A stretch of DNA of 64,000 nucleotides from Terriglobia bacterium (GTDB lineage: Bacteria; Acidobacteriota; Terriglobia; Terriglobales; Acidobacteriaceae): the NCBI GenBank assembly GCA_032252755.1, contig JAVUPY010000052.1, positions 62,001 to 126,000 on the forward strand, given 5' to 3'. Numbering within the stretch: the stretch's first letter is position 1; each line of letters starts with the position of its first letter. Shown in pieces: positions 42,927-58,993 of the stretch. Under the pieces are notes generated by a model. The model was given only the letters and a program-made list of their open reading frames with translations. It was not told the origin of the DNA and ran no database searches. Both the position numbers and the translations under genes were made by a program.

Positions 42927-44228
42927 CTAGAACGCCCGATCCAGCAGTTCAACTACGTGAACCACCTCGGCGTTGAGGCGGGCGCGCTTTTCGCCGGCTT
43001 TCAACTGCAGCATGCAGCCGACATTCGCCGTGGCTATTATTTCCGGCTTCACGCTCGCAACATTCGCCATCTTCTCGTCCAGGATCTTCATCGACAACTC
43101 GTTCTGCACGATGTTGTAGGTGCCGGCGCTGCCGCAGCAATCGTCAGCGCGCGGCATCTCCACTACCTCGATCCCAATCGCCTTCATCAACTCGCGCGGG
43201 GCACTCCGCACCTTCTGCCCGTGCGCGAGATGACACGGATCCTGGTAGGTTACGCGTGATGCAAGTTTTCGCGCCGGCGCCCGCAGGCCCACCTCATAAA
43301 GGTATTCATTGACATCCCGGACCCTCGCCGCGAAATCCGCTGCCTTCACCGAATACTCCGGATCGTGTTCCAGCAGTTCGCCGTACTCTTTCAACATGCA
43401 GCCGCAACCGGCGGCGTTGCTGATGACGGCATCTACGCCGGGCGCCATCATGGCATCGATATTCTTCTTCGCCAACTCTCGGGCCTTCGGCAGTTGGCCG
43501 GCATGTGCATGCAAAGCGCCGCAGCACGTCTGTTCTTTTGGGACGACCACTTCAATCCCGTTCTTCGTTAGGACGCGCACTGTGGCACGATTCAACTCCG
43601 CGAAAGCAACGCTCGCGATACAACCGGCCAGCAGCGCCACTCGTCCGCGCCGTTCACCCACGGCGGCATAGACATTACCGAACTCCCGGAAGTAGAAATC
43701 CGACTCAATCTTCGGCGAGAGTGCATCCAGTTCTGCTACGCCGAACAGTTTCAGCAACCCTGTGGCGCGAAGCACGGCCTGGAGGCCCGAGCGCTGGTAG
43801 AACCCTACCCACTTCGCATATCGGGCCAGCTTCTTGAAATCATGCAACACCGAGCCGTAGAAATGCTCCCGCAGCTTGCGGTCGAGCCACGGCCGTTTGT
43901 AGTTCTGCTCGATCTCCGCACGCGCCCGTTCCAGGATGCGGCCGTACGATACGCCCGACGGGCATGCCGTCTCGCACGCGCGACACCCGAGACAGCGGTC
44001 AAGGTGAGTCACAAATGACTCGTCGATTGTCAGACGCCCCGCGTCTACCTGCAGGATCTGGTAAATCCGCCCACGTGGCGAATCCGCCTCGCGTCCCAGC
44101 ACCCGATACGTGGGACACTGCTGCAAACACAATCCGCAGTGAATGCACCGCGAATACAATTCCCACGTGGGACGATCCGGCGTCGTGTAATTCGATCGCG
44201 TTTCGGTCTTGATCCCGGCTGTGCTCAG
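42927..44228 (-). CDS. glcF: Glycolate oxidase iron-sulfur subunit
   Basis: About 433 residues with two ferredoxin-type clusters (CIHCGLCLQQCP and CLGCRACETACP) and two CCG-type domains (TCCGALHAHAG, NAAGCGCMLKE, CHLAHG, DDCCGSAGTYNI). GlcF transfers electrons from the GlcD/E flavoproteins to the membrane. No ATG, GTG or TTG stands at a suitable place in this frame. A CTG at 44228 overlaps the glcE stop (CTGA) and has GGAGG eight bases upstream, so I propose a CTG start. A 475-residue extension from 44354 would lie inside glcE and is unlikely. Confidence 0.85.
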   Translation of the reverse strand: MSTAGIKTETRSNYTTPDRPTWELYSRCIHCGLCLQQCPTYRVLGREADSPRGRIYQILQVDAGRLTIDESFVTHLDRCLGCRACETACPSGVSYGRILERARAEIEQNYKRPWLDRKLREHFYGSVLHDFKKLARYAKWVGFYQRSGLQAVLRATGLLKLFGVAELDALSPKIESDFYFREFGNVYAAVGERRGRVALLAGCIASVAFAELNRATVRVLTKNGIEVVVPKEQTCCGALHAHAGQLPKARELAKKNIDAMMAPGVDAVISNAAGCGCMLKEYGELLEHDPEYSVKAADFAARVRDVNEYLYEVGLRAPARKLASRVTYQDPCHLAHGQKVRSAPRELMKAIGIEVVEMPRADDCCGSAGTYNIVQNELSMKILDEKMANVASVKPEIIATANVGCMLQLKAGEKRARLNAEVVHVVELLDRAF

Positions 44229-45556
44229 AACAAAAACCTCCCGCGATTCATGATCCCGTTCGGGTCCAACGCGCGCTTCACGGCTTTCATGGCTTCCATG
44301 TCGTTTGCGGTCTCGCCCCAAACGGAAAAGTACGGTTTCGCTTCGCGCGGACATCGCACCACTACGGCCGACCCATCTTTCGGCATCGACTTCCGTATGG
44401 CTGTAACCACGCTCGCATACTGGCTGACCACCGGCGGATCGACCGAGAGTGGCACCAGGGCGACAATCAGCGACGCTAACCCAGCCCGGCCCACACTGGC
44501 GAACAAGAAGTTGTGGTCTGTCGCAGCCTGCTCTGCCGCTCCCAACACTTCACAAACCGCACTCGATCGCAAATGTACTTCCATCAACATCGCATTCTGA
44601 TGCTTCCTCGGCACTGCCTCGGCGAACTCCCGCACGCCATTGCAGAACCGTTTCTCTTCTGCCCCCACCAACTCCCGGTTCGTGTTCGCGCTCAACTCTC
44701 GCCGATATCGCTCGAGCACCGCGTCCGATCCCGCCGCTCGAGTCAGAACCGACCAGGCTTCGCTCGAATCCCCGATGTACTCGAGCGCCCGCGGAGAGAT
44801 CACTTCCATGCAGATGGGACTCAGCGGCGAACGCCTCACGGCGCCGCAGAACTCCATCGCGGACTCACAATCCTCGAATTCTCCGATAAACGTCGCCGTC
44901 TGCTTCGGCGCTGGAAACAGCCTGAAATTCGCCGAAGTGATCACCCCGAGCGTCCCTTGGCTGCCGATCATCAACTTCATCAAATCGTAGCCGGCGACGT
45001 TCTTCACCACGCGGCCACCGGCTTTCGCGATTCGACCATCGCCGGTAACGAACGACACTCCTATGCAGTACTCACGCGCGCCGCCAAACCCGTTTTTCAA
45101 GGGTCCAAAGGACGACGTCGCCAGCGAGCCGCCTATCGTGGCCTGCGCTGCGTTCGGGGGATCAAGCGGCAGCAGCAGACCTTTTTCCGCCACGCGCACA
45201 AGGATTTCACCGAGCTTGCAGCCTGCCTCCATTCCGATTGTCAGGTCACCGGGATCGAAGTGCAGAACGCGAGTGAGGCGATGAGTGCGAAGGAGAATAT
45301 TCACCTGCTCCGGAACCTTCCCGATGGATTGCCTCGTGAACCCACCCGCGACAGTAACACTCGCGTCGCGCTCGTTCGCTAGCCGAAGAATCGCAGCAAT
45401 CTCTTCCGCCGACGCCGGGACCACCCACATTCCTGGCCGCACGCCGTCGATGGCAAACCCTGTCAGCGCGCCGGGATCGTCGCATACGTACGCGTCGCCG
45501 ACAATCGCTGCCAGTTCGCGTCCGAGTTGGGCCGTCGCTGTGCTTGCCACCGTCAT
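44225..45556 (-). CDS. glcE: Glycolate oxidase FAD-binding subunit GlcE
   Basis: This 443-residue PCMH-type FAD protein has an N-terminal FAD domain (VTVAGGFTRQSIGKVPEQV, ATIGGSLATSSFGP, AGYDLMKLMIGSQGTLG) and a shorter FAD-oxidase C-terminal region. It is the second flavoprotein of glycolate oxidase, which oxidises glycolate to glyoxylate. It overlaps glcD by four bases (ATGA) and glcF by a CTGA. Lactate is an alternative substrate in this family. Confidence 0.88.
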   Translation of the reverse strand: MTVASTATAQLGRELAAIVGDAYVCDDPGALTGFAIDGVRPGMWVVPASAEEIAAILRLANERDASVTVAGGFTRQSIGKVPEQVNILLRTHRLTRVLHFDPGDLTIGMEAGCKLGEILVRVAEKGLLLPLDPPNAAQATIGGSLATSSFGPLKNGFGGAREYCIGVSFVTGDGRIAKAGGRVVKNVAGYDLMKLMIGSQGTLGVITSANFRLFPAPKQTATFIGEFEDCESAMEFCGAVRRSPLSPICMEVISPRALEYIGDSSEAWSVLTRAAGSDAVLERYRRELSANTNRELVGAEEKRFCNGVREFAEAVPRKHQNAMLMEVHLRSSAVCEVLGAAEQAATDHNFLFASVGRAGLASLIVALVPLSVDPPVVSQYASVVTAIRKSMPKDGSAVVVRCPREAKPYFSVWGETANDMEAMKAVKRALDPNGIMNRGRFLF

Positions 45557-46986
45557 CGTTTCCTAAGCTCTGGCGGAATCGCGGCCGCGCCCGTTTCCCG
45601 GCAACTTCTCGTGGTTGGGAAAATCTTCCGCGGGTTGAAAAGCGAATCAGGATTGAAAGCTTCGCGCAGGCTCTTCATCACGTCCATATCGGTTTCGGTG
45701 AACAGCAGCGGCATCAGCTTGTCCTTCTCCATGCCCACGCCGTGTTCGCCCGTAATGGTGCCTCCCACGCTCACGCAGTAGCCCAGGATTTCCCCGCTGG
45801 CGGCGATCGTCTTTTCCAACTGCGCCGGATCTCGCAAGTCGAACAGGATCGCCGGGTGCATGTTGCCGTCGCCCGCGTGAAAGATGTTTGCGATACGCAT
45901 TCCGTACTTCTCGCTGACCTTGGCGATGAACTTCAGCGTCTCCGGAATCTTCGTTCGCGGCACCACGCCATCCTGCGTGTAATACGAAGGTGCGAGCCGC
46001 CCGATCGCGGCAAACGCGTTCTTCCTTCCCTTCCACAGCAGCGCCCGCTCCGCGTCATCCTTTGCGCGCCGAACTTCCCGCGCACCGTTCACCGCGCATA
46101 GCCGCCGCACCGCCTCGGCCTGTTCTTCCACCGCTTCGCGCAACCCTTCCAGTTCGATCAGCAGCACGGCCCCGGCGTCCATCGGATACCCGGCATGCGT
46201 CGCTTCTTCCACCGTGCGCAGCGTCAGGCCATCGAACATCTCCAGCGCCGTCGGAGTAATCCCCTCCCGGGTAATGTCGACGACAGTGTTCGCGCCATCA
46301 TCAATCGTGTCGTAGATCGCCAGCAGGGTCGCGATCGTTTCAGCTTTTCGTGTCAGTTTGACGGTGATCTTCGTGACGATTCCGACGGTGCCTTCCGTGC
46401 CAGTGAAGAATCCGCACATGTCATAGCCACAGGTATCGACCGACTTGCCCCCGAATTGCGCGACGCGGCCGTCGCCAAGCACAACTTCCAGGCCCGTCAC
46501 GTGATTCACGGTCACGCCATGCGCCAGCGTGTGCGGGCCGCCCGAGTTCTCGCCCACGTTGCCGCCAATGGTCGACGCTTTCTGGCTCGAAGGGTCCGGC
46601 GCGAAGTACAACCCATGCTTCTCCACAGCATTCGACAATTCGAGATTCACGACGCCCGGCTGCACCGTCGCCCTCTGGTTTTCCAGATCGATCTCAAGGA
46701 TCCTGTTCATGCGCGTGAAGACGAGGACGATGCCGCCATCGCGAGCGATCGACCCGCCGCTCAGCCCCGTTCCCGCACCACGCGGCACAATCGAAACCCC
46801 TTCCGCCGCCGCAATCTTCACAATCGCCGAAACATCCTCAGTCGTCGCCGGAAACACCACGGCACCCGGCGTCCCCTTGTCCACCCCCGCGTCATACTCG
46901 TAGAGCATCACGTCCCCGGCTTTATCCAGGACGTTCCCACTCCCCAGCGCTTTCCTGAGTTTCGCGATTGCCTCAACCAAGGCCAT
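45553..46986 (-). CDS. glcD: Glycolate oxidase subunit GlcD
   Basis: About 477 residues of a GlcD/D-lactate-type FAD-linked oxidase: PCMH domain (VPRGAGTGLSGGSI, ATIGGNVGENSGGPHT, YDMCGFFTGTEGTVG) and FAD-oxidase C-terminal domain with IFHAGDGNMHP and TGEHGVGMEKDKL. I prefer the ATG at 46986, five bases after AGATAGG, over the GTG at 46992, which touches that site. It leads glcDEF, separated from citF by a 198-base gap with a hairpin. Such enzymes feed electrons from 2-hydroxyacids into the quinone pool. Confidence 0.9.
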   Translation of the reverse strand: MALVEAIAKLRKALGSGNVLDKAGDVMLYEYDAGVDKGTPGAVVFPATTEDVSAIVKIAAAEGVSIVPRGAGTGLSGGSIARDGGIVLVFTRMNRILEIDLENQRATVQPGVVNLELSNAVEKHGLYFAPDPSSQKASTIGGNVGENSGGPHTLAHGVTVNHVTGLEVVLGDGRVAQFGGKSVDTCGYDMCGFFTGTEGTVGIVTKITVKLTRKAETIATLLAIYDTIDDGANTVVDITREGITPTALEMFDGLTLRTVEEATHAGYPMDAGAVLLIELEGLREAVEEQAEAVRRLCAVNGAREVRRAKDDAERALLWKGRKNAFAAIGRLAPSYYTQDGVVPRTKIPETLKFIAKVSEKYGMRIANIFHAGDGNMHPAILFDLRDPAQLEKTIAASGEILGYCVSVGGTITGEHGVGMEKDKLMPLLFTETDMDVMKSLREAFNPDSLFNPRKIFPTTRSCRETGAAAIPPELRKR

Positions 46987-47035
46987 GGACACCTATCTTA
47001 CTCCGTCACGGTGTCGCGTCCCACATGTACGGGTG

Positions 47036-47184: not shown

Positions 47185-48771
47185 TCATTCTTGCTTCTGC
47201 TTCCAAATCGTATCGAGCACCGTCCCATCCACCCACTTCACCACGGCCACTGGTTCGTCGGTGAGTCTCGGTTTGGCCGATTTTCCGCCGCAGATTTTCT
47301 CGACTTCTTCCTTGATCTGCTCAAGTTTGCGGACGGGCAGGCCGCTCCCCTTCACCGCATCCAGCAAATCCTGCCGTCTCGGGTTGATCGCAATTCCGCG
47401 CTCCGTCACGATCACGTCGATCAACTCTCCCGGTCCGGTCAGGGTCGTAACTTCGTCGACGATCACCGGAATACGGTCGCGGAACGAGGGCAGCGCCAGT
47501 ATTGTGCATCCCGCAAAAAGGCAATTCTGCCAGCCACCGATTCCATGCAGCATCCGCCCATCCGAATGCGTTACGACGTTGCCGTTGAAATTGACGTCCA
47601 CTTCCGTAGCCCCAAGAATCACTGCGTCGACCATCGACGCGAAGTTTCCCTTCCCGTGAAAGTTGTAGGACGTGAACGGCGAGGTCGGAACATGCCGCGG
47701 GTCAGTGGCAATCGACTTCACCGCATCGAGGTCGAACGTCTGCCCGTCCAGGATGTAACTCGTTAATCCTTCCTGCAGCATCTCGACCAAGTATTTCGTA
47801 GAACCGCCGCGCACGAACCGTGCCTTTACTCCGGCCTCGCGCATGTAGCGCCGCAGGTAATCGACGAACGCCAGTGCGATTCCTCCGGCGCCTGCCTGGA
47901 ACGAGAACCCGTCGCGCATGATTCCCGTCACTTTCAGGAACCGCGCGACCATCTCGGCAATTCGCAACCGGTCGGGCGACCGCGTGATCTGCGTCGTCCC
48001 GCTGACGATCTTTGCCGGATCGCCGATGCTCGGCACTTCGACAACGTGGTCGACGTTATTCCCCTGGATCTGCCACGGAATACATGGAAACGGCACCAGG
48101 TTGTCGGTCACCACGATCACCTTGTCCGCATACATAGAGTCCGCCAGCGCAAATCCCAGCGACCCGCAAGCCGAGGGCCCATGCGACCCATTCGCGTTAC
48201 CGAACGGGTCCGCCGTGGGCGCGGCGATCACCGCGATGTCAACGTGAACCTCGCCATCCTGGATCGCCTGCCATCGCCCGCCATGCGACCGCAGCACACC
48301 GTATCCGCGCATCTTCCCGTGCGAGCAGTAATCCCCGAGCGGCCCATTCATTGACCCCTCGATGTGGTGCACCGCGCCTTTTTCCATCAGGTCGATGACG
48401 GGCTCATGACATGGGAATGAGGCGCTGGGGAACCAGCGTAGATCCTTAACGCCCATTCGCGCGGCAACTTCCAGCGCAGGCAGCGCTACGCGATCACCTT
48501 CGCGAAGATGGTGATGCGACGAAATTGTCATTCCATCGCTCAACCCGCACAGCCGCAGCGCCGTCTCGAGATCGGGCACACGCTTGTCACCGTTCTCCGG
48601 GAAATCCGCATTCGTGCGCACCGGTGGAGATGCCTTCCGTCCAGATGGCTTGTACTTGCCGACTCCCTGGTACGCAACCTGTTCGCACCCATTCACGAAT
48701 GTGGGCACCTTGCGCCCCGCCGCATTCTTGACCAACTCGACCTGCTGCTTCGCTTCAACTGTCATAGTCAT
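47185..48771 (-). CDS. citF: Citrate lyase alpha subunit (citrate CoA/ACP-transferase)
   Basis: This 528-residue CitF-type CoA transferase has EGSMNGPLGDYCSHGKMRGYG, SHGPSACGSLGFALADSMYA, FSFQAGAGGIALAFVDYLRR and a late SFRDRIPVIVDEVTTLTGPGE. In citrate lyase CitF exchanges acetyl for citryl on the acyl carrier CitD, and CitE then cleaves citryl-ACP to oxaloacetate and acetyl-ACP. It follows a CitD-CitE fusion gene with a 65-base gap filled by an AT-rich repeat. Length is near that of E. coli CitF. No citC, citX or citG lies nearby. Confidence 0.9.
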   Translation of the reverse strand: MTMTVEAKQQVELVKNAAGRKVPTFVNGCEQVAYQGVGKYKPSGRKASPPVRTNADFPENGDKRVPDLETALRLCGLSDGMTISSHHHLREGDRVALPALEVAARMGVKDLRWFPSASFPCHEPVIDLMEKGAVHHIEGSMNGPLGDYCSHGKMRGYGVLRSHGGRWQAIQDGEVHVDIAVIAAPTADPFGNANGSHGPSACGSLGFALADSMYADKVIVVTDNLVPFPCIPWQIQGNNVDHVVEVPSIGDPAKIVSGTTQITRSPDRLRIAEMVARFLKVTGIMRDGFSFQAGAGGIALAFVDYLRRYMREAGVKARFVRGGSTKYLVEMLQEGLTSYILDGQTFDLDAVKSIATDPRHVPTSPFTSYNFHGKGNFASMVDAVILGATEVDVNFNGNVVTHSDGRMLHGIGGWQNCLFAGCTILALPSFRDRIPVIVDEVTTLTGPGELIDVIVTERGIAINPRRQDLLDAVKGSGLPVRKLEQIKEEVEKICGGKSAKPRLTDEPVAVVKWVDGTVLDTIWKQKQE

Positions 48772-48838
48772 TCGTCATTTCGACATTCGTAATTTCGTCA
48801 TTACTTTTCAATCGTCAATGCGAAAATCGCCAATCGTC
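48772..48838. repeat. AT-rich GACGATT-type repeat (copy B)
   Basis: Fills the citDE-citF gap: CATTCGTCATTTCG, TTTTCAATCGTCAATGCGAA, then AATCGCCAATCGTCAATT. On the minus strand it is a run of ATTGACGATT/AATGACGAA words directly upstream of the citF ATG. Matches copies A and C in order and wording. Confidence 0.65.
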
Positions 48839-50045
48839 AATTCACGAGACCCATTCTTCTCGCCCGCTCCACCAGTTTCACCGCCCGATTCACCACCGGC
48901 GGATCAATCATCTTCGAGCCCAGACTTACTACTCCGAGTCCCTTCGCCTTCGCGTCCTCGAATGCCGCCACGATCTTCAGCGCCTTTTCGATCTCCGTTT
49001 TCGACGGCGCATACGCTTCGTGGATGACTTGGATCTGCAGCGGATGGATGCAGCCCATGCCCTCGAATCCCATCGCCCGCGACTGCTCGCCCCAACGGCG
49101 CAGGCCGTCCATATCGGCGACGTCCCCGAATACAGAATCGATCGCCTGCACGCCAGCGGCTTTTGCGGCATTCACTACGCGGAACCGCGCAAAAAGCGTC
49201 TCTTCACCGGTCCGCGTTCTCACGATTCCGAGATCAGCGGTGTAATCTTCCAGTCCGATGGTCAGCGCGCAAACGCGATCCGACGCCGTCGCAATCGCGA
49301 ACGCATTCTCAATTCCCAGCGCCGACTCGAGGATCGGCATGATCCAGATCGGCTGCTTGATCCCCTCGCGTGTCTCGATCTCCGAAATCTTCCGATCGAC
49401 CTCGAGCACTTCGCGCGCATGCTCGACCTTGGGAATGAGAATGACGTCCGGCCGCTCCGGCACGACCTCTTCCAGATCCTGGTACCCCAGCGGCAACTGA
49501 TTAATCCTCACCATCCGCTCCGCCGCGCCGAAATCGACCCCCCACAGGGTGTTGCGCACCAGCACTCGCGCTGAATCCTTTTCGCTCGCGTGGACGGAAT
49601 CTTCAAGATCGAGAATCACCGCGTCAGGCTCATGCAGTCCGGCATTGATGAAGTACTTGGGCTCGCTCCCCGGCAGATACAATCGCGAGCGCCGCAAACG
49701 ATCCTTCGTGGAGTGCTCCGGATGCGGCACGGGTTCCGGCAACCATCGCTTCCCATTCCCCAGGCCCGACCGTCGTACCGCCGCCTCGGTCCGTGCCGCG
49801 ATGACAAACGGCAAGGCGCCTTCATCAATGATCGTGAGTTTGCCGATTGTGACTCCCAGCGATGCAAGAACATTCTTCGCCTGTTCGCGAATTTGCTCGC
49901 CATAGTAAAGGCCAACCCTAGACTGCAACTCGATTTCCAGGGGCCTCTCGCCGGGTTCATAGCGGACGAACAGATCACTCCGCACGTCTGTTCCCTGCCG
50001 CCCAGCCTCACCAATCCTTGCCCTAACTTCCGCCGTCATCGCCAT
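48837..50045 (-). CDS. citE: CitD-CitE fusion: acyl carrier plus citryl-ACP lyase
   Basis: About 402 residues. Residues 1-95 match CitD: GTDVRSDLFVRYEP contains the serine that carries the phosphoribosyl-dephospho-CoA group in known citrate lyases, and the domain ends with IDEGALPFVIAARTEAAV. After a short linker comes CitE: RSRLYLPGSEPKYF, AVILDLEDSVH, IMPILESALGIENAF, IGLEDYTADLG and GCIHPLQIQVIHEAY. CitD and CitE are normally separate, so this is a gene fusion. I start at the ATG at 50045 because the upstream extension has no CitD-like content. It lies between an IDH-family gene and citF. Confidence 0.88.
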   Translation of the reverse strand: MAMTAEVRARIGEAGRQGTDVRSDLFVRYEPGERPLEIELQSRVGLYYGEQIREQAKNVLASLGVTIGKLTIIDEGALPFVIAARTEAAVRRSGLGNGKRWLPEPVPHPEHSTKDRLRRSRLYLPGSEPKYFINAGLHEPDAVILDLEDSVHASEKDSARVLVRNTLWGVDFGAAERMVRINQLPLGYQDLEEVVPERPDVILIPKVEHAREVLEVDRKISEIETREGIKQPIWIMPILESALGIENAFAIATASDRVCALTIGLEDYTADLGIVRTRTGEETLFARFRVVNAAKAAGVQAIDSVFGDVADMDGLRRWGEQSRAMGFEGMGCIHPLQIQVIHEAYAPSKTEIEKALKIVAAFEDAKAKGLGVVSLGSKMIDPPVVNRAVKLVERARRMGLVN

Positions 50046-50130: not shown

Positions 50131-51339
50131 CTACGCACCAACTCCGACGCCCGCCTCAACCTTCGCCAGGATCGCATCCGTCATCTGGTTCGTCGATGCC
50201 GCTCCCTGCGCAATCGACTTTCCGCCACCGGAGAGCCGCATCATGTCGTACGTCCGAATCTTGCCTTCGGCGACGACATCCGCGATTGCCTTCCGAATGC
50301 GATTCGCCTTCTCGGTCTCGCCCACGTGGTCCAGCATCATCGCCGCCGAAAGAATCATTGCGATCGGGTTCACGATTGGCGGATGAAGTTCGGCGTACTT
50401 CGGAGCCGACCCATGCGTCGGCTCAAATACCGCAACTTCCTCGCCGATATTGCCGCTCGCCGCAAAGCCCAGTCCGCCAATCAATCCCGCAAAGGCGTCC
50501 GAGATCACGTCGCCGAACAAATTGGACGCAACGATCACGCCATACTCTTCCGGATTCTTCGTCAGCCACATCGTTTGGGCGTCGATATTCGTCGACCACA
50601 GCGCCACGCCGGGATACTGCTTGCTGACTTCCTTCGCGACCTCTTCCATCATCCCCGAGGTCTCGCGCAGCACATTCGGCTTCTCGCAAATGGTCACCGA
50701 CTTGTAGCCGAACTTCTTCGCGTATTCGAACGCCGCCACGCAGATCCGCCGCGCATTCTTCCGCGTGATAACCCGAACGCTCACTGCAAGGTCCTCGCCC
50801 GGCACATCCGCAAACGGCTTGAACTTCGAGTGTGTCGCCAGCGCCGTTCGCACGTTCGCCGGAGGATTTGTCCACTCCACGCCCGCGTACAGACCCTCGG
50901 TGTTCTGCCGGAACACGACGACGTTCACCTGCGGTTCCTCGAACCCGCCATCCCCGCGTTTGCGAATGAAGTTCAGCGGATTGCCCGGGAACCCGATGCA
51001 CGGCCGCATGCAGATATCGAGATTGAAAATCTGCCGCATCGAAACGATCGGACTGAAATACGAGAACCCCTTGCCCTGCAACTCCGGCTTCAACTCCGCC
51101 TCAGCAGCCTTCTTCGGCTTCGACGTAATCGCGCCAAAAAGCCCAAGCTTATGCTTCCGCAGCAACTCCACCGTGCGCTCCGGCAGCGCGTTGCCCTCGT
51201 TGCACCACGCCTCCCAGCCAATGTCCGCATGCACGTATTCGGCGTCGAATCCAACCGCATTCAGTACCCGGATCGCCTCCGGCAGGACCTGGTTCCCAAT
51301 CCCATCGCCCGGCATCGTCACAACCGTGTATTTCGCCAT
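50131..51339 (-). CDS. Isocitrate/isopropylmalate-type dehydrogenase
   Basis: This 402-residue beta-decarboxylating dehydrogenase has the N-terminal MPGDGIGNQVLPEAI, the substrate-side segment MRQIFNLDICMRP, VFRQNTEGLYAGVEW, DAFAGLIGGLG and the cofactor region THGSAPKYAE followed by NPIAMILSAAMML. The NPIAMILSAAMML part is like isopropylmalate dehydrogenase, whereas the NTEGLYAGVEW part is isocitrate-dehydrogenase-like. The preferred acid (isocitrate, homoisocitrate, isopropylmalate, tartrate) cannot be fixed by eye. Upstream sits an aconitase-family gene, downstream citDE. Ribosome-binding purines come from a CGCAGAGG repeat. Confidence 0.85.
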   Translation of the reverse strand: MAKYTVVTMPGDGIGNQVLPEAIRVLNAVGFDAEYVHADIGWEAWCNEGNALPERTVELLRKHKLGLFGAITSKPKKAAEAELKPELQGKGFSYFSPIVSMRQIFNLDICMRPCIGFPGNPLNFIRKRGDGGFEEPQVNVVVFRQNTEGLYAGVEWTNPPANVRTALATHSKFKPFADVPGEDLAVSVRVITRKNARRICVAAFEYAKKFGYKSVTICEKPNVLRETSGMMEEVAKEVSKQYPGVALWSTNIDAQTMWLTKNPEEYGVIVASNLFGDVISDAFAGLIGGLGFAASGNIGEEVAVFEPTHGSAPKYAELHPPIVNPIAMILSAAMMLDHVGETEKANRIRKAIADVVAEGKIRTYDMMRLSGGGKSIAQGAASTNQMTDAILAKVEAGVGVGA

Positions 51340-51386: not shown

Positions 51387-53345
51387 CTACTTCGCAATCA
51401 CTTCCGGCACTAAGCCCAGCCTCCTCGCGACGAGTTTCTCCACTCCGCCCGCGACGACCAGCGATTGCGGCACTGCTCCCATCGCTGGAAACTGGAACTT
51501 CTCATCCATGCACGTTATCGTTCCGGTAGTGAAATCAATCGCGACTTCAATCCCTGGAATAATCGTCTTCTCTTTCGCCGCAACCCTCGGCGCGAAGACC
51601 TGCTTCAACCACTTCACGTACTCCGGCGACTCAATGCACAGGAAACCGTTGTTAAATGCATTCCGCAGATACGTCTGCGAGAAACTCCCCGCGATCACCA
51701 GCGGCAACCCCTTCGCCTGCAGCGCCGTCACCGCCTGCTCGCGGCTCGACCCCGTACCAAAGTTGAATCCGCCTACGATCACATCGCCCGCCTGCGTGCG
51801 CGACGCAAATTGCGGATCGTAGTTCTCAAACACCACCTTCGCCATCAGCTCGCGCGTCATGTCCTCGCGATAGGTGTAGTCCTTGCCGTAGATCCCGTCG
51901 GTGTTCAGATTGTCCTGCGGCACGAAAATTAGCCGGCCCTTCACCACCGCCGGGAAACCCGGAAGAATCTCGACCTTCTCCGCCGTAGCAGCTTTCGGGG
52001 TTAGCTCCACGAACTCCCGTTTCGGAATCTCCTGTGCAAACTCCACCGGCCCCGTTATGTACCCAGCTACAGCACTCGCTGCGACCACGGCCGGCGACCC
52101 GAGATAGCATTTCGCATCGCGCGAGCCCATCCGGCCCTTGAAATTACGGTTCGTCGCCGAAATCCCGACCTCGCCCGCCTCGAGCAATCCCGTCCCGAGT
52201 CCGATGCACATACCGCAACTCGGCGGAAGCGCAATCGCGCCTGCTTCCATCAGCGTCTTCCAATAACCCTTCGCCTCGGCACGCGATTGAACATCCTTCG
52301 AGGCCGCTGCCACATAGAAGCTCACGGTCGGTGCGACTTTCCTTCCCTTGAGCACCTCGGCCGCGGCAGCCAAATCCTCCAGCCGTGAATTCACGCAGCT
52401 CACCAGGTACGCCCTCTGGATCGCAACCTTCTTCGGCGCGATCTCTGCCACCGACGCCATCGTCTGCACCGTATCCGGCCCGCTCACATGCGGCGTCACC
52501 GTGCTCAGATCGAGGATGATCTTCGCCGCATACTCCGCTTCCGGATCTGGCATCGGTGGATTCGCTTCCAGGTTGCGCAACTCATCTTCCGATATCCGCT
52601 CCGCCGTCGCTCCGACCGCCCGGCGCTCGCGCAAGTATGCGAAGGTCTTCGCATCCGGGGGGAACCACCCAACCAGAGCGCCCCATTCGGTGGACATATT
52701 GGCGATCGACATCCGCTCTTCCATCGAGAGCGCCGCCACGCCCTCGCCCGCGAACTCCGCCGCCGCGTTAAGCACCTCTTCCTGGTTGTAGAGCCCGCAC
52801 AAGGTGATGATCACGTCCTTGCCACTCACGCCTTTGCGCAGACTGCCCGTTAGCTTTACCTGCACCGTGCGCGGAATCTGCCACCAGAACTCACCGGTCG
52901 CCCAGATCGCCGCCGCGTCCGTTCGTACCACCGGAGTTCCAATCGCCCCCAGCGCGCCATACATGTTGGAATGCGAATCGCTCGCGACAACAAAGCTCCC
53001 CGGCAGCACGTATCCCTTTTCCATCATCAACTGGTGACCGATGCCTGTGCCCGCCGGATAGAAATCGATCCCCTGCTCCTTGGCGAATGCCTCAATGGAC
53101 GCATACTGCTTCAGGTTCTGCTCGCTCGTGTTCTGGATGTCGTGGTCAAGCGCAAATACTGGCTGCCGCGCATCCAGGACCTTCTTCACGCCAATCGCCT
53201 TAAACTTCTTCAGCACTGCCGCCGTGTTGTCGTGCGTCATCACGTGCTTCGGCCGGATCGACAGAAAATCTCCCGCGCGCAATGCCCGCTTCGGCCCTTC
53301 CGCCATATGCGCCTGCGCCAGCTTCTCCACAATCGTCTGTGCCAT
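51387..53345 (-). CDS. Aconitase/homoaconitase-family hydratase, fused large and small domains
   Basis: This 652-residue [4Fe-4S] hydro-lyase has PKHVMTHDNTAAVLKKF, GTGIGHQLMMEKGYVLPGS, VASDSHSNMYGALGAIGTPV, and cluster cysteines in VSCVNSRLED and PPSCGMCIGLGTG. A C-terminal swivel domain has VGGFNFGTGSSREQAVTAL. The covalently joined LeuC/LeuD-type layout and the swivel motif resemble homoaconitase (Lys4) more than standard AcnA/AcnB. It would interconvert a tricarboxylate and its isomer via the cis-aconitate-type alkene. It lies between PrpD- and IDH-family genes. Confidence 0.85.
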   Translation of the reverse strand: MAQTIVEKLAQAHMAEGPKRALRAGDFLSIRPKHVMTHDNTAAVLKKFKAIGVKKVLDARQPVFALDHDIQNTSEQNLKQYASIEAFAKEQGIDFYPAGTGIGHQLMMEKGYVLPGSFVVASDSHSNMYGALGAIGTPVVRTDAAAIWATGEFWWQIPRTVQVKLTGSLRKGVSGKDVIITLCGLYNQEEVLNAAAEFAGEGVAALSMEERMSIANMSTEWGALVGWFPPDAKTFAYLRERRAVGATAERISEDELRNLEANPPMPDPEAEYAAKIILDLSTVTPHVSGPDTVQTMASVAEIAPKKVAIQRAYLVSCVNSRLEDLAAAAEVLKGRKVAPTVSFYVAAASKDVQSRAEAKGYWKTLMEAGAIALPPSCGMCIGLGTGLLEAGEVGISATNRNFKGRMGSRDAKCYLGSPAVVAASAVAGYITGPVEFAQEIPKREFVELTPKAATAEKVEILPGFPAVVKGRLIFVPQDNLNTDGIYGKDYTYREDMTRELMAKVVFENYDPQFASRTQAGDVIVGGFNFGTGSSREQAVTALQAKGLPLVIAGSFSQTYLRNAFNNGFLCIESPEYVKWLKQVFAPRVAAKEKTIIPGIEVAIDFTTGTITCMDEKFQFPAMGAVPQSLVVAGGVEKLVARRLGLVPEVIAK

Positions 53346-53379: not shown

Positions 53380-54798
53380 TTACGCGTGCACCGCCAACCC
53401 GACCGACATCAACTCCATCAACTCCGACACACTCTTCTGTTTCTCCAGGCCCCAGATCGCCCCACTCAACTTCTTCCGCTTTTCGGCCCCCATGATCGGC
53501 TCCGCCAACGCATGGAACTTCTCCTCGATCTCCCGATCGCTCAGCGGATTCCGCGGGTCTCCCTTCGGGAAATCCATAGTCTTCTCGAACACTCGCCCGT
53601 CAGTCGTCGAGATCTTCACGCCGACCCGTTGCAGCGCCGGAAACACCTTCTCGATCTCCGGATCCGCGACGACTTTCACTTTCTGCAGTTGCGCACGAAT
53701 CGTCGGGTCCATGATCTTTCCCATAGTGAACTGGAGCGGCGTCACCTGCCGCTCCGCCACCGCCGCCGCAATGCAATAGGGCAGCGAATGATCCGCCGTC
53801 TCTTTCGTGCGCGGATCGTACTTGCTCGGGTCGCTCAGGATGTCCGCGCCACGCGCCGTCGTCCTGATATGAACTTCCTTCACCATCTCCGGCCGCAGGT
53901 CATTCGACTTCACCAGGTCCAGCACGCATGAAATCGGCGTATGCGTCAGCGCCTCCGTCGGGAAGAACTTCATCCCGCACTGCGTGATTCGCCACGATTC
54001 GCCGAGCCCATCGGTCAAGATGTTCAGCTTCCATTCCGGCCCAAACACGTGCACCAGGCCCTCTTTGCCGTCGATCACGTGTTCCGGCCCCGTATATCCC
54101 TTTTCCGCCAGCAGCGCCGCCAGCACACCGCTCTCGGTTGCCATCGGATCGACCGTGTTCTTCATCATCGTCAGTTTGCCCGCCGTCACCGCGCCCAGCG
54201 TGCACCGTGCCGACGCTGAAATCCCTATCGCGTGCTGAATCTTTTCCCATGTCAGCCCGAGCATCCGCCCCGCAACGATTGGCGAGACGAACGCCGTCAG
54301 CGTTGCATGATGCCAACCTCGTTCCCGAACCCCCGGGAACGCCACCTCGCACATGCGCTGCTCGAACTCGTGTCCTAGAACCAGGCCGACGATCAGTTCG
54401 CGCCCATCGCTCTTCGCGCGCTCGGCGCACGCCAGCGCCGCCGGAAAAATATCCGAGGGATGCGACGGATCCTGTTTCCAATAAATATCGTTGTAGTCCA
54501 TGCAGCGAATCATCAGCGCGTTCGCCAGCGCCGCATGAACCACGTCCATCTTCGCTCCCGACCCGATCACCGTCGCCGGGCCGCTCTTCGCGACTTCCTC
54601 CAGCACTTCCAGCGCGATCTTCACGTCGTGCTGCTGATACCCGCCCAGCGCGCACCCAATCGAATCCAGCAGAAACCGTTTCGCCTGGTACACCGCGTCT
54701 TGCGACAAATCCTCGAACCGCACGCCCGCCGCCCACCGCGCCATCACCGCCGTAATCGTTTCCTGTTTCTCCGCCATCGCTAACTCCGCCTCCGCCAT
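53380..54798 (-). CDS. MmgE/PrpD family protein
   Basis: This 472-residue protein of the 2-methylcitrate dehydratase / cis-aconitate decarboxylase family. Typical segments are RFLLDSIGCALGGY, NALMIRCMDYNDIYWKQDPSHPSD and GWHHATLTAFVSPIVAGRMLGL, plus a C-terminal domain starting near IRTTARGADILSD. Known members act on 2-methylcitrate, aconitate or iminodisuccinate. No prpB or prpC is nearby, so classical methylcitrate cycling is not indicated by context. It overlaps the upstream small membrane protein gene by 19 bases and precedes the aconitase-family gene by 34. Confidence 0.88.
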   Translation of the reverse strand: MAEAELAMAEKQETITAVMARWAAGVRFEDLSQDAVYQAKRFLLDSIGCALGGYQQHDVKIALEVLEEVAKSGPATVIGSGAKMDVVHAALANALMIRCMDYNDIYWKQDPSHPSDIFPAALACAERAKSDGRELIVGLVLGHEFEQRMCEVAFPGVRERGWHHATLTAFVSPIVAGRMLGLTWEKIQHAIGISASARCTLGAVTAGKLTMMKNTVDPMATESGVLAALLAEKGYTGPEHVIDGKEGLVHVFGPEWKLNILTDGLGESWRITQCGMKFFPTEALTHTPISCVLDLVKSNDLRPEMVKEVHIRTTARGADILSDPSKYDPRTKETADHSLPYCIAAAVAERQVTPLQFTMGKIMDPTIRAQLQKVKVVADPEIEKVFPALQRVGVKISTTDGRVFEKTMDFPKGDPRNPLSDREIEEKFHALAEPIMGAEKRKKLSGAIWGLEKQKSVSELMELMSVGLAVHA

Positions 54799-55091
54799 TT
54801 GTCTTCGAGCCTCGAGCTACCCGGCCGCTTCTTCTCCGGAAGGCTGACAATCCCTGAACCCGACTTCTTCGCCGTCGTAATCGCCAGGGCTACTGCCGTG
54901 ATCACAAAGCCAATCCCGAATGCGATAACGACATACAGGTTCTGTTCATCGCCGTTGAGAGTAACCAGCGCCTGCGCATCCAAAGCCCAGCGATAGAGCC
55001 AAAGGCCCACAATCGCCACGCCCAAAACCACGAAACCACCCAGAACAGAGAGCAGTACGATCTCCCCCCAAGGCACATAGTTCTTCGCCAT
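54780..55091 (-). CDS. Small two-helix membrane protein
   Basis: About 103 residues with two hydrophobic helices (IVLLSVLGGFVVLGVAIVGL and LYVVIAFGIGFVITAVALAI) and a basic C-terminus. I start at the ATG at 55091, preceded by AAGGATGAGG, rather than the longer frame from 55199. Its end overlaps the PrpD-family gene by 19 bases, which suggests co-transcription. No family recognised. Confidence 0.6.
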   Translation of the reverse strand: MAKNYVPWGEIVLLSVLGGFVVLGVAIVGLWLYRWALDAQALVTLNGDEQNLYVVIAFGIGFVITAVALAITTAKKSGSGIVSLPEKKRPGSSRLEDKWRRRS

Positions 55092-55212
55092 CCTCAACCT
55101 CATCCTTAAAACTTTTCCCGGCTTTTCCCCGGGCTTGAGCAACACGCCGCTGCGCCACCCCGGCGCAACAACGTCCGACTTCTTCATCTCAACAATCACT
55201 GCAACATCCGCG

Positions 55213-55815
55213 TCACGACTTTTGGGCTACGACTTTCGACTTTTCTGGGAACTTCACATTCTTGAACGGCAGATAGGCCATGAAATCCGCGTGGTGCACG
55301 ATATATGCTTCCGTCGTGCGCTTGACCAGGTCGCCCTCCGCCGCATGGGCCGCGATGATGTGGCACACCGCATCCGGCAACCCGCATTCCATGGCAAGGG
55401 CTACTCCCGTGAACGGATGCCGCAGCAACTCGCCGCGTTCGCTCTGCACCGTCTTGCCATCCCGGTTCTCGTACTCCAGCAACTTACCAACGTCAGCGAG
55501 GATGGCTCCCGCAATCACGGTGTCGAAATCGATCTTCAGCGCATTGCCCATGAACTCCCGCATCGACTCCGCCGCGCCCCGCGCAATATGCACCACGCAC
55601 CGCTTGTGCTCCATGAAAGTCGTAGGGCAATTCGGAATCAGCAGCGTGAAAGGAATTTCGTTCAGGTCGTCTGGCTTGAGTGGACTTAACTCGAAGGCGC
55701 GCTCCCAACAGCGCGTCGTCTTCTCCCGAAGCTCCGCATCCTGAATCCAGGCAAGCTCCGGCCATAGACGTAAAACGTCTTCGCGGATCAAGTTGTCCTC
55801 CACGTCATGACTCAT
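55213..55815 (-). CDS. HD-domain phosphohydrolase-like protein
   Basis: About 200 residues with an HD-type metal pattern: FMEHKRCVVHIARGA, AGAILADVGKLLEYE, LRHPFTGVALA, CHIIAAHAAEG and YIVHHADFMAY. The HD doublet is seen here as AD in AILADVG, so metal binding may be altered. I start at the ATG at 55815; a GTG 12 codons upstream is possible. First gene of the run leading to prpD, aconitase and cit genes. Might be a nucleotide or second-messenger hydrolase; substrate unknown. Confidence 0.65.
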   Translation of the reverse strand: MSHDVEDNLIREDVLRLWPELAWIQDAELREKTTRCWERAFELSPLKPDDLNEIPFTLLIPNCPTTFMEHKRCVVHIARGAAESMREFMGNALKIDFDTVIAGAILADVGKLLEYENRDGKTVQSERGELLRHPFTGVALAMECGLPDAVCHIIAAHAAEGDLVKRTTEAYIVHHADFMAYLPFKNVKFPEKSKVVAQKS

Positions 55816-56038
55816 CTCAAGGAGTCTCTGACGGAGGCTCGTGGCCCACACGTCGCCGCCTCGGTTGTGACGATATGTGGGGTCTTTCCGGCGGACTATC
55901 CCGCCATACGAGCTATTCCATTCCTAATGGAGGTGCAATCGACCCGCTGTGACCGAAATCACGAGTAGTGGTGAGGAGATAGCTTGAATAAATATGCAGT
56001 ATGCAGCGGCGAACTGTATGTCTATATTGGTCAGCCTT

Positions 56039-56413: not shown

Positions 56414-58993
56414 CTAAAGGTTTCTGACTCTCCGCTCCAGATCCCTCGCGATGCTCTCCGCAGCCGCATTCGCCGGATACTTCACCGGCTCCCCAATCCG
56501 AACCGTGATCGTTCCCTTCCGCGAGAACCGCTGCTTCTTCAGGCGTAGCTCATACAGCCCGTCGATCCGCATCGGCAGCACTGGTAAATCCAGCTTCTGC
56601 GCGAGCAGTCCGACGCCTGATTGGAACGGCTGCATCTCGCCCGTATCCGTCCGGCGACCTTCCGGAAAGACGACGACGCTATACCCCCGATCCACGGCTT
56701 CGCCGGCGAACGCGAAGCTCTCGCGGAACCCGTACTTCTGGAATATCGGAAACACGTTGAACAACGTGACGACGAGCCCGTAGTCGAGTTTCTCGCGAAT
56801 CCGCTGGAACCAGTTCATCTCTTTCGGCGGATGCCGCATAGCGACCAGCAACTCCCCGAGCATCGCCACCGCCAGGCGCGTCCGATACCGCCAAGGTAAG
56901 GCCCACAGCAGGAACCCGATATCCAAATACGCGACGTGATTGGAGATGATCAGCAGCGGCCCCTCGACGCCCTTCAGTTTGTCGCGCGCGATCACGCGCG
57001 GCCAGGTCATCAGCAGCGTCGCCGGCCACGTCACGCCCTGGTACACTAGCGCTCGCAACCACCGCAGCGGCGCCGCCAGCGCCCACGTCGGAAACTCGTA
57101 GCGAGGCCGCTCCTGCGGCGACTCGCGCAGCATCTTCTCGACCTGCGCCACCGTGGTCGCGTTCGAAAACGTCTGCTCGTTCAGCGAGACCTGGTACCGG
57201 TCCTCAATCGCCGACATCAACTCCACGCGATCGATCGAGCTCAAATTCAAATCGCTCTCCAACTTCGCGTCCGGAGCCAGCGCCTCCACCGGCTTCCGTG
57301 TGACCCGCCCAATCAGTTCCGCCAGCGCGCTCTGTGGAGTCTCACCCGTCGGCCCCGCCCCAAACTTCGCCCTTGCATACGCCTCGATCTCACCGATCTT
57401 CGGCTTCTGTGTCGACGTTCTTGGGAAATCCTCATCCGGCCACACCAGCCATCGCCGAATCTGCTGAAACTCCGCGAGCCGCGCATTCGCCGCCGCTACC
57501 GCCTGCTTGCCGTCACTCCCATCCTGCATCAGCAGCACCGCGCAAGGCTCCGCATTTCCCTCTACCGGCAGAGCGACAACAACGCAATCGCGAACCTCCG
57601 GCTGCGCCCGCAGCGCCCCTTCCAAATCCTCCGGATAAACCTTCATCCCCGCCGGCGTAACGATCACGTTCTTTCGCCGGCCCTTGAAATAAAGGTTCCC
57701 CTCGGCATCCAGTTCTCCGAGATCGCCGGTGTGGAACCATCCCTCTTCCCCGCCCACCGGCTCAAACTGTGCCCCGCTCTCGGTTGCCCTACCCTTGTCG
57801 CCGTCTTTAGGCGACAAGGTGGGGCTTTTCGCTGTCCAATACCCCGCCGCCAAATTCGCTCCGCGCACCAGGATCTCGCCGTTCTCGTCGAGCTTCATCT
57901 CCCGTCCCGGCAGCACCTTCCCAATCGATCGCTGCCCGACTTTGAACGGATGATTCAGACTGATCAGCGAAGTCGTTTCGGTCAGACCATATCCCTGCAC
58001 GACGGCATACCCGAGCCGGTTCCAGAACTTCTCCGTATCAGCATCCAGCGCAGCACCGCCCGAGATGAACGCCCAGAACTTCCACCCAAGTTTTCGGTGC
58101 ACATCGCGGAAGCGCCACATGCGCTTCAAGAACTTCTTTCCCTCAGCTTCTGCAAACCGCCGCAGAAACCTTTCCAGTTTCCCTTCCGCCTCGAGATCGC
58201 GTTCGAGTTTCTGGCGCAATGACGCCAACATGCGCGGCACCGCAATCAGAGCCGAAACCTTCTCGTGCTTGATCACCTCCATGATCTCGCCCGGGCTCAG
58301 CGAGTTGTGGAAGACGACCGTCGCCCCGAGCGCCTGCGGGATGAACAGCCCAAGAAACTGTCCGAACACATGGCTCAGCGGAAGCAGATTCAGGAATGCC
58401 AGCGGATGAAACCACTTTTCGTACTTCCGATACTTCGCGATTTCGCGCTCGATCGGCTCCAGGTTCGCCAGCACGTTCCCATGTGAGATCACGACGCCCT
58501 TCGGCTCCGAAGTTGTCCCCGAAGTAAAGACGATCTCCAGCATGTCCTCGCGCCCGATCTCCGGACTCGCATACGGTCCGGAATCGTGCTTCGCCACCCG
58601 CTCGCGCAAATCTTCCATGACGAGCACATCGCGGGTGCCGCACAACCCGGCGATCTCCCTCGCAACCACCATCAGTTTGGCATCGACTTGCTCCGCCACC
58701 CGCATCGCGAAGTCGTCACTCGCCACTCGATCCATTGGAACCGATACCGCGCCACGCAGCACGCAGCCAAAAAAACCCGTCGCCCACTCCGCCGAGTTGT
58801 CCCCCCACAGCACCACGCGATCGCCCTTGGCGACTCCGCGCGCCTCCAATTCGCGAGCGAACTGCCGCGCCGTGCGCAACACCTCGCCATAGCTCCACCG
58901 CTCCGTGCGATAGCCCCGCCGATGCGCATACGCTGGCCCCTCACCCCACGAAGACAGCCCTTCCACCACCGCGACCAGCGACTTACGTTCCAT
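56414..58993 (-). CDS. Acyl ligase - acyl carrier - PlsC acyltransferase fusion
   Basis: An 859-residue three-domain protein. Residues 1 to about 530 are an AMP-forming fatty-acid ligase (VFTSGTTSEPKGVV at 155-168, VVQGYGLTETTSL, WFHTGDLG, GRRKNVIVTPAG). About 555-640 is an acyl carrier domain with the phosphopantetheine serine in LNLSSIDRVELM. About 660-859 is a PlsC-type acyltransferase (ISNHVAYLD and FPEGRRTDTGEMQPFQSG). It could activate a free fatty acid, load it on its own carrier and transfer it to a lipid acceptor, related to Aas but with an extra ACP. A palindromic repeat encodes an extra segment (about 390-403) before the WFHTGDLG motif. Confidence 0.88.
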   Translation of the reverse strand: MERKSLVAVVEGLSSWGEGPAYAHRRGYRTERWSYGEVLRTARQFARELEARGVAKGDRVVLWGDNSAEWATGFFGCVLRGAVSVPMDRVASDDFAMRVAEQVDAKLMVVAREIAGLCGTRDVLVMEDLRERVAKHDSGPYASPEIGREDMLEIVFTSGTTSEPKGVVISHGNVLANLEPIEREIAKYRKYEKWFHPLAFLNLLPLSHVFGQFLGLFIPQALGATVVFHNSLSPGEIMEVIKHEKVSALIAVPRMLASLRQKLERDLEAEGKLERFLRRFAEAEGKKFLKRMWRFRDVHRKLGWKFWAFISGGAALDADTEKFWNRLGYAVVQGYGLTETTSLISLNHPFKVGQRSIGKVLPGREMKLDENGEILVRGANLAAGYWTAKSPTLSPKDGDKGRATESGAQFEPVGGEEGWFHTGDLGELDAEGNLYFKGRRKNVIVTPAGMKVYPEDLEGALRAQPEVRDCVVVALPVEGNAEPCAVLLMQDGSDGKQAVAAANARLAEFQQIRRWLVWPDEDFPRTSTQKPKIGEIEAYARAKFGAGPTGETPQSALAELIGRVTRKPVEALAPDAKLESDLNLSSIDRVELMSAIEDRYQVSLNEQTFSNATTVAQVEKMLRESPQERPRYEFPTWALAAPLRWLRALVYQGVTWPATLLMTWPRVIARDKLKGVEGPLLIISNHVAYLDIGFLLWALPWRYRTRLAVAMLGELLVAMRHPPKEMNWFQRIREKLDYGLVVTLFNVFPIFQKYGFRESFAFAGEAVDRGYSVVVFPEGRRTDTGEMQPFQSGVGLLAQKLDLPVLPMRIDGLYELRLKKQRFSRKGTITVRIGEPVKYPANAAAESIARDLERRVRNL
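57786..57825. repeat. REP-like palindrome inside the acyl-ligase coding region
   Basis: GCCCTACCCTTGTCGCC (57786-57802) pairs with GGCGACAAGGTGGGGC (57810-57825) apart from one bulged base and one wobble. It resembles the intergenic palindromes at 47036-47069 and 50075-50111. It is translated in frame as part of SPTLSPKDGDKGRA. Confidence 0.65.

Follow-up and report, generated by a model that had tools for sequence, protein, structure and literature searches.

Citrate lyase is a classic example of an enzyme that depends on a CoA derivative of its own, bound covalently, and on three proteins that mature it. According to PMC10798043, CitG and CitX make and attach this arm in the canonical system, CitC acetylates it, CitF exchanges the acetyl group for a citryl group and CitE cleaves the citryl-carrier. 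The 64,000-nucleotide stretch of DNA analysed here (the window), from a soil bacterium of the Terriglobia, encodes proteins of the same families, and raises the question of how such an enzyme could work when its carrier is joined to the lyase subunit and the window holds no citC, citG or citX, an absence that the original prediction had pointed out and that we can confirm.

The fusion protein, CitDE, is encoded on the minus strand at 48837-50045 and comprises 402 residues from the ATG at 50045. An alternative in-frame ATG upstream, at 50177, would make the gene run into the preceding one, and a plus-strand reading of the interval was rejected. As originally proposed, the protein joins CitD to CitE: a CitD-type carrier domain at residues 18-92 (49770-49994, minus strand) matches the Pfam family PF06857 above its cut-off (E 6.7e-17) and is followed by a CitE-type lyase domain at about residues 116-397 (48855-49700, minus strand), within which the Pfam family HpcH_HpaI/CitE covers residues 119-335 (E 3.7e-55). 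The NCBIfam models citD and citE match at residues 17-94 and 116-396, both below their equivalog cut-offs. The same arrangement recurs in all 80 relatives' loci recovered by scanning the GTDB genome collection, one of which (L071) lacks the start, and the fusion is therefore no artefact of the frame or the assembly. Furthermore, canonical and fused sequences separate from each other in the trees of CitE, CitF and CitD, with support of 1.0, 1.0 and 0.999, respectively. The fusion is real and old, and forms a clade of its own apart from canonical CitD, CitE and CitF.

The carrier domain departs from canonical CitD at the attachment site. For comparison we used 13 stand-alone CitD proteins, namely that of E. 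coli, nine from plasmid-collection records and three encoded by genomes of the phylum to which the window belongs. All 13 contain the motif S-[S/G]-D, with the modified serine two residues before the aspartate (GTLES-S/G-D). We take this carrier serine to be the one numbered Ser14 in CitD of Klebsiella and E. coli. Where the stand-alone proteins have an E-S-[S/G]-D type of sequence, the CitDE protein of the window reads V-R-S-D, and in gap-free alignments Arg22 (codon at 49980-49982, minus strand) aligns with the serine that bears the prosthetic group in both CitD and MdcC, the carrier of malonate decarboxylase. In MdcC this is Ser25, the serine of GSGD in 5vit_C, which sits in the same setting as the CitD carrier serine and to which, according to PMC5534430, the prosthetic group is attached. 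We assembled 97 fused proteins (the window, the 80 GTDB loci and 16 from genomes of the phylum, with two pairs representing the same protein twice), of which 96 can be read at this position, the N-terminus of L071 being absent from the stretch read. The residue is arginine in 95 of them and lysine in one. None of the readable fused proteins thus has a carrier with the prosthetic-group serine in its E-S-[S/G]-D context.

A carrier serine within a GTxxxSD motif had earlier been reported for this protein, but that match was off by one residue: Arg22 aligns with the modified serine, and the serine of "SD" aligns with the position after it. Since this next position is already serine in 12 of the 13 canonical proteins, the exception being glycine in E. 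coli, it was the wrong serine that had been matched. The same fact bears on the idea that Ser23, one residue further on, has become the attachment site for a different prosthetic group, for example 4'-phosphopantetheine added by a general transferase. The carrier fold is retained and Ser23 is present in 95 of the 96 readable fused proteins, as the idea would predict. In the canonical proteins, however, the matching serine is common without being the modified residue, L041 has alanine there, and the surrounding gene block has no conserved transferase gene. We therefore regard a shifted attachment site as improbable.

The second line of evidence comes from the maturation genes, which the original prediction had suggested might lie elsewhere. 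For CitG and CitX this is refuted in the genome of the window, which is 99.98% complete and in which whole-genome searches found neither. The CitC profile, searched in this genome only, gave a single weak match of 21.5 bits, which from its sequence reads as coaD, the pantetheine-phosphate adenylyltransferase, so that CitC was not found as such. The original prediction was to fall if the genome held another, standard cit cluster that included a citD. This check did not refute it: the genome contains one CitD-family gene and one CitF, and a second, standard citD/citF set was accordingly rejected; a further weak match to the CitF profile looks like a protein of the acetyl-CoA hydrolase/transferase type.

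The association between the fusion and the missing genes extends beyond this genome. Among 297 genomes of the phylum, 40 had a match to PF06857. Four of these encode separate carriers, three of the citrate-lyase type (G193, G292 and G097) and one MdcC-like (G202). In the other 36 the carrier match lies in long frames of 235-887 residues, apart from a 123-residue fragment in G136, where a second match lies in a frame of 353 residues; the window's own genome and 16 others of this group were read, and all have the fusion. CitG is present in exactly the four genomes with separate carriers and in none of the 36 (one-sided Fisher p 1.1e-5, uncorrected for shared ancestry), and CitX in three of the 40, all of them with separate carriers of the citrate-lyase type, and again in none of the 36. 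Likewise, no CitG was found in 41 further fusion-bearing genomes of unstated completeness, 39 of which are titled outside the Acidobacteria; these 41 are the part of the 80 GTDB genomes covered by the search, the other 39 all being titled Acidobacteria, Terriglobia or the like. Because the attachment residue is arginine or lysine throughout and the searches of fusion-bearing genomes turned up neither CitG nor CitX, we conclude that CitDE probably has no covalently attached group. The earlier proposal that the fusion uses another prosthetic group thus holds in part: the canonical arm does appear to have been abandoned, but the evidence points to no covalent group rather than to a substitute.

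If the arm has been lost, what has become of the carrier domain? The model of the whole CitDE protein is confident (pLDDT 92, pTM 0.89), and the carrier domain alone (residues 1-102) models at pLDDT 87. Its nearest solved relative is MdcC in 5vit_C (Z 9.2, rmsd 2.1, 81 residues aligned, 27% identity), although this match is only 0.7 Z above unrelated folds of the RNase PH type (Z 8.5), and we count differences below 1 Z as ties; MdcC has the lower rmsd and the higher identity. A Foldseek search with the carrier domain alone listed ribosomal proteins and EF-G first, with MdcC not among the best 50 matches, and no solved CitD structure came up in a phmmer search with the E. coli protein. With unrelated folds at such scores, the modelled MdcC-like fold supports rather than proves the assignment to the CitD/MdcC carriers, and it is the sequence profile that carries the case. 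In the model, Arg22 is placed in a loop between the strands at residues 12-15 and 25-35, a placement resembling what PMC5534430 describes for Ser25 of MdcC, which bears the prosthetic group where CitDE has arginine.

The lost serine could also mean that the carrier domain is a dead relic, attached to a CitE part that acts as a stand-alone acyl-CoA lyase beside an independent CoA transferase, CitF. Stand-alone CoA-dependent lyases related to CitE do exist, and Foldseek with the whole CitDE protein listed malyl-CoA lyase, CLYBL and citramalyl-CoA lyases first. These proteins share the lyase fold and use a free acyl-CoA substrate, but judging by chain length they stand alone, unlike CitDE. None is known to be fused to a carrier fold or partnered by a CitF-type transferase. 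The structural likeness also speaks for the use of free CoA by CitDE, although as evidence it is weak, because no canonical carrier-dependent CitE could be recognised among the structures shown. Over such divergence a dead domain should have degenerated, whereas here the carrier fold is predicted with confidence, eight residues (D24, S42, D74, G76, A77, A84, R85 and A89) are invariant among 26 aligned proteins, Arg22 is almost invariant, and CitF accompanies CitDE in 77 of the 80 loci. We consider a dead relic very improbable. Since the domain is so strongly conserved, it probably still positions the substrate or the subunits.

We therefore favor the hypothesis that CitF and CitDE form a putative two-protein lyase of the citrate-lyase type that uses free CoA esters after loss of the covalent phosphoribosyl-dephospho-CoA arm, to which hypothesis we assign a probability of roughly 0.7. 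The use of free CoA is inferred from the loss of the carrier serine and of the genes that make the arm. In the mechanism that we envisage, CitF would release acetate from acetyl-CoA and place the CoA on a free hydroxy acid with two or three carboxyl groups. The CitE part would then split the resulting acyl-CoA into a 2-oxo acid and acetyl-CoA, which would prime the next turn. The carrier domain would stay on as a structural and possibly CoA-guiding element, with Arg22 in the place of the modified serine; our most specific guess is that Arg22 holds free CoA by its 3'-phosphate. With the arm gone and acetyl-CoA itself as the primer, all three maturation proteins would be unnecessary, which fits the pattern seen; CitC in particular would be pointless, because its role is to acetylate the bound thiol. 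PMC5534430 describes a comparable case in malonate decarboxylase, in which MdcD-MdcE uses malonyl-CoA rather than the bound arm.

How far, then, does the system resemble known citrate lyases? The CitDEF enzymes of E. coli, Klebsiella and the lactic acid bacteria, which work with CitC, CitG and CitX, consist of the same three catalytic and carrier families in the same D-E-F order, and here too a CitF-type transferase is encoded together with a CitE-type lyase subunit. CitF, the alpha subunit, lies directly downstream of CitDE (47185-48771, minus strand; PF04223, E 4.5e-129), with 482 bits to TIGR01584, below the cut-off of 501. Between fused and canonical systems CitF shows fixed differences in 11 columns, none of which could be linked to a function. 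The differences are the fusion of carrier and lyase, the exchange of serine for arginine, the absence of CitG and CitX, and the lack of a CitC in this genome. Given the replaced serine and the missing CitG, CitX and CitC, we do not file CitDE and CitF as a citrate lyase. They are best called a prosthetic-group-free, CoA-using relative of citrate lyase, whose substrate may not be citrate.

The neighbouring genes provide clues to that substrate. Upstream of CitDE and on the same minus strand are an isocitrate/homoisocitrate/isopropylmalate-type dehydrogenase (50131-51339; PF00180, E 4.9e-78; motif FSPIVSMRQ), a single-chain isomerase of the homoaconitase family (51387-53345), an MmgE/PrpD-family protein that is a candidate dehydratase (53380-54798; PF03972 and PF19305), a small gene (54780-55199) and an HD-domain protein (55213-55851; HDIG, TIGR00277), the first gene of the conserved block. 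The best solved relatives of the MmgE/PrpD protein are IDS-epimerase, IRG1/cis-aconitate decarboxylase and 2-methylcitrate dehydratase. Across the 80 loci, in which some genes are missing because contigs end, the dehydrogenase is present in 65, an aconitase-family gene in 46 and MmgE in 39, and all six genes of the window occur together in 35. Most of these loci belong by record title to Acidobacteriota, followed by Bacteroidota, Gemmatimonadota, Latescibacterota, Chlorobiota, Delongbacteria and a deltaproteobacterium. In 55 loci, which span several phyla, the dehydrogenase and CitDE are accompanied by the HD-domain protein. The small gene was rejected as a member of the block, since it occurs in none of the 80 loci, and so were the GlcD, GlcE and GlcF homologues that follow CitF on the same strand (42927-46992), which adjoin the block in the window and in none of the relatives. 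Upstream of the block, at 56414-58993 on the minus strand, lies an 859-residue protein with AMP-binding, phosphopantetheine-carrier and acyltransferase domains; a related adenylate-forming protein is encoded upstream in L007.

The presence of aconitase-type and isocitrate-dehydrogenase-type genes in this order, and the membership of CitF and CitE in their families, could be taken to mean that the pair is a genuine citrate lyase, converting citrate to oxaloacetate and acetate in a branch resembling the reductive TCA cycle but running on free CoA. Such a reading bears on the substrate and does not conflict with the mechanism proposed above. Outside the block, however, the genome already encodes AcnA, as well as two dehydrogenases that carry the isocitrate motif S-x-N, one as RSLNVALRQ next to a malate-dehydrogenase-like frame and the other as SSINVELRK; the asparagine of this motif presumably corresponds to Asn115 of E. 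coli isocitrate dehydrogenase. The isomerase and dehydrogenase of the block are therefore extra copies. Moreover, all 70 homologues of the block dehydrogenase have SPIV, the motif of yeast Lys12, rather than S-x-N. The lyase itself also differs. Canonical CitE has an arginine (RLPK) in 12 of 13 proteins where the CitE part of the fusion has Leu203, found in 93 of the 94 full-length fused proteins, with one unreadable. We thus regard cleavage of citrate itself as possible but doubtful.

The one canonical exception, with methionine in place of the arginine, adjoins methylaspartate mutase genes in Peptoclostridium acidaminophilum and is presumably a citramalate lyase. This three-subunit relative also lacks the CitE arginine but, unlike CitDE, it keeps the carrier serine, citC and citX. 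Citramalate was considered as a substrate on the strength of this single control. The partner isomerase and dehydrogenase point to a homologue of citrate rather than to citrate itself, and together with the change from arginine to leucine in CitE they suggest a substrate other than citrate, possibly homocitrate. The isomerase of the window scores 707.6 bits against TIGR00139, well above the homoaconitase cut-off of 529.9, as do all four relatives tested (736.7-751.4), which favours homocitrate, whereas the dehydrogenase, whose best NCBIfam match is homoisocitrate dehydrogenase, reaches 275 bits against a cut-off of 540. Compared with the aminoadipate pathway, to which both enzymes are related, a lyase stands here in place of homocitrate synthase. 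TIGR02146, the model for the latter, was over its cut-off in none of the 13 genomes searched, ten of which carry the fusion, and we therefore infer that breakdown driven by the lyase is likelier than synthesis. Thermodynamics favour cleavage.

A broader scheme, which we consider rather unlikely, is that a pathway widespread in Acidobacteriota, Gemmatimonadota, Bacteroidota and other bacteria operates reactions of the aminoadipate type in reverse. It would begin with the reductive carboxylation of a 2-oxo acid, for example 2-oxoadipate, and the product would be isomerised by separate MmgE/PrpD and homoaconitase proteins, after which the arm-free lyase would convert the homocitrate-like acid to 2-oxoglutarate and acetate, with the arginine of the old carrier holding the phosphate of free CoA.

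We found no description of a CitD-CitE fusion or of a prosthetic-group-free citrate lyase in the literature searched, which excluded most subscription journals. A relative in several phyla that lacks the serine and the maturation genes but keeps the carrier fold offers a natural experiment on what the bound arm is for and how an enzyme can do without it. Furthermore, where such genes have been annotated as a "citrate lyase", citrate may not in fact be cleaved, a point that matters for predicting reductive TCA metabolism in Bacteroidota and soil Acidobacteriota.

Among the flanking genes of the relatives, those of L060, L065, L075, L076, L041, L035 and L053 gave unrelated families and no clue to the substrate. 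The blocks of the Bacteroidota differ from that of the window, in that MmgE was not found in most of those loci. In L075 (13570-17270) and L053 (1533-8637), where MmgE is missing, further genes of the aconitase/isopropylmalate-isomerase type adjoin the block; it looks as though each isomerase half-reaction had an enzyme of its own. Many Bacteroidota loci also have an operon of the methylmalonyl-CoA epimerase/decarboxylase type directly before CitDE, read in L054 (4756-8941) as a glyoxalase/epimerase-type protein, methylmalonyl-CoA decarboxylase-type subunits and a biotin carrier, hinting at a link with propionyl-CoA metabolism.
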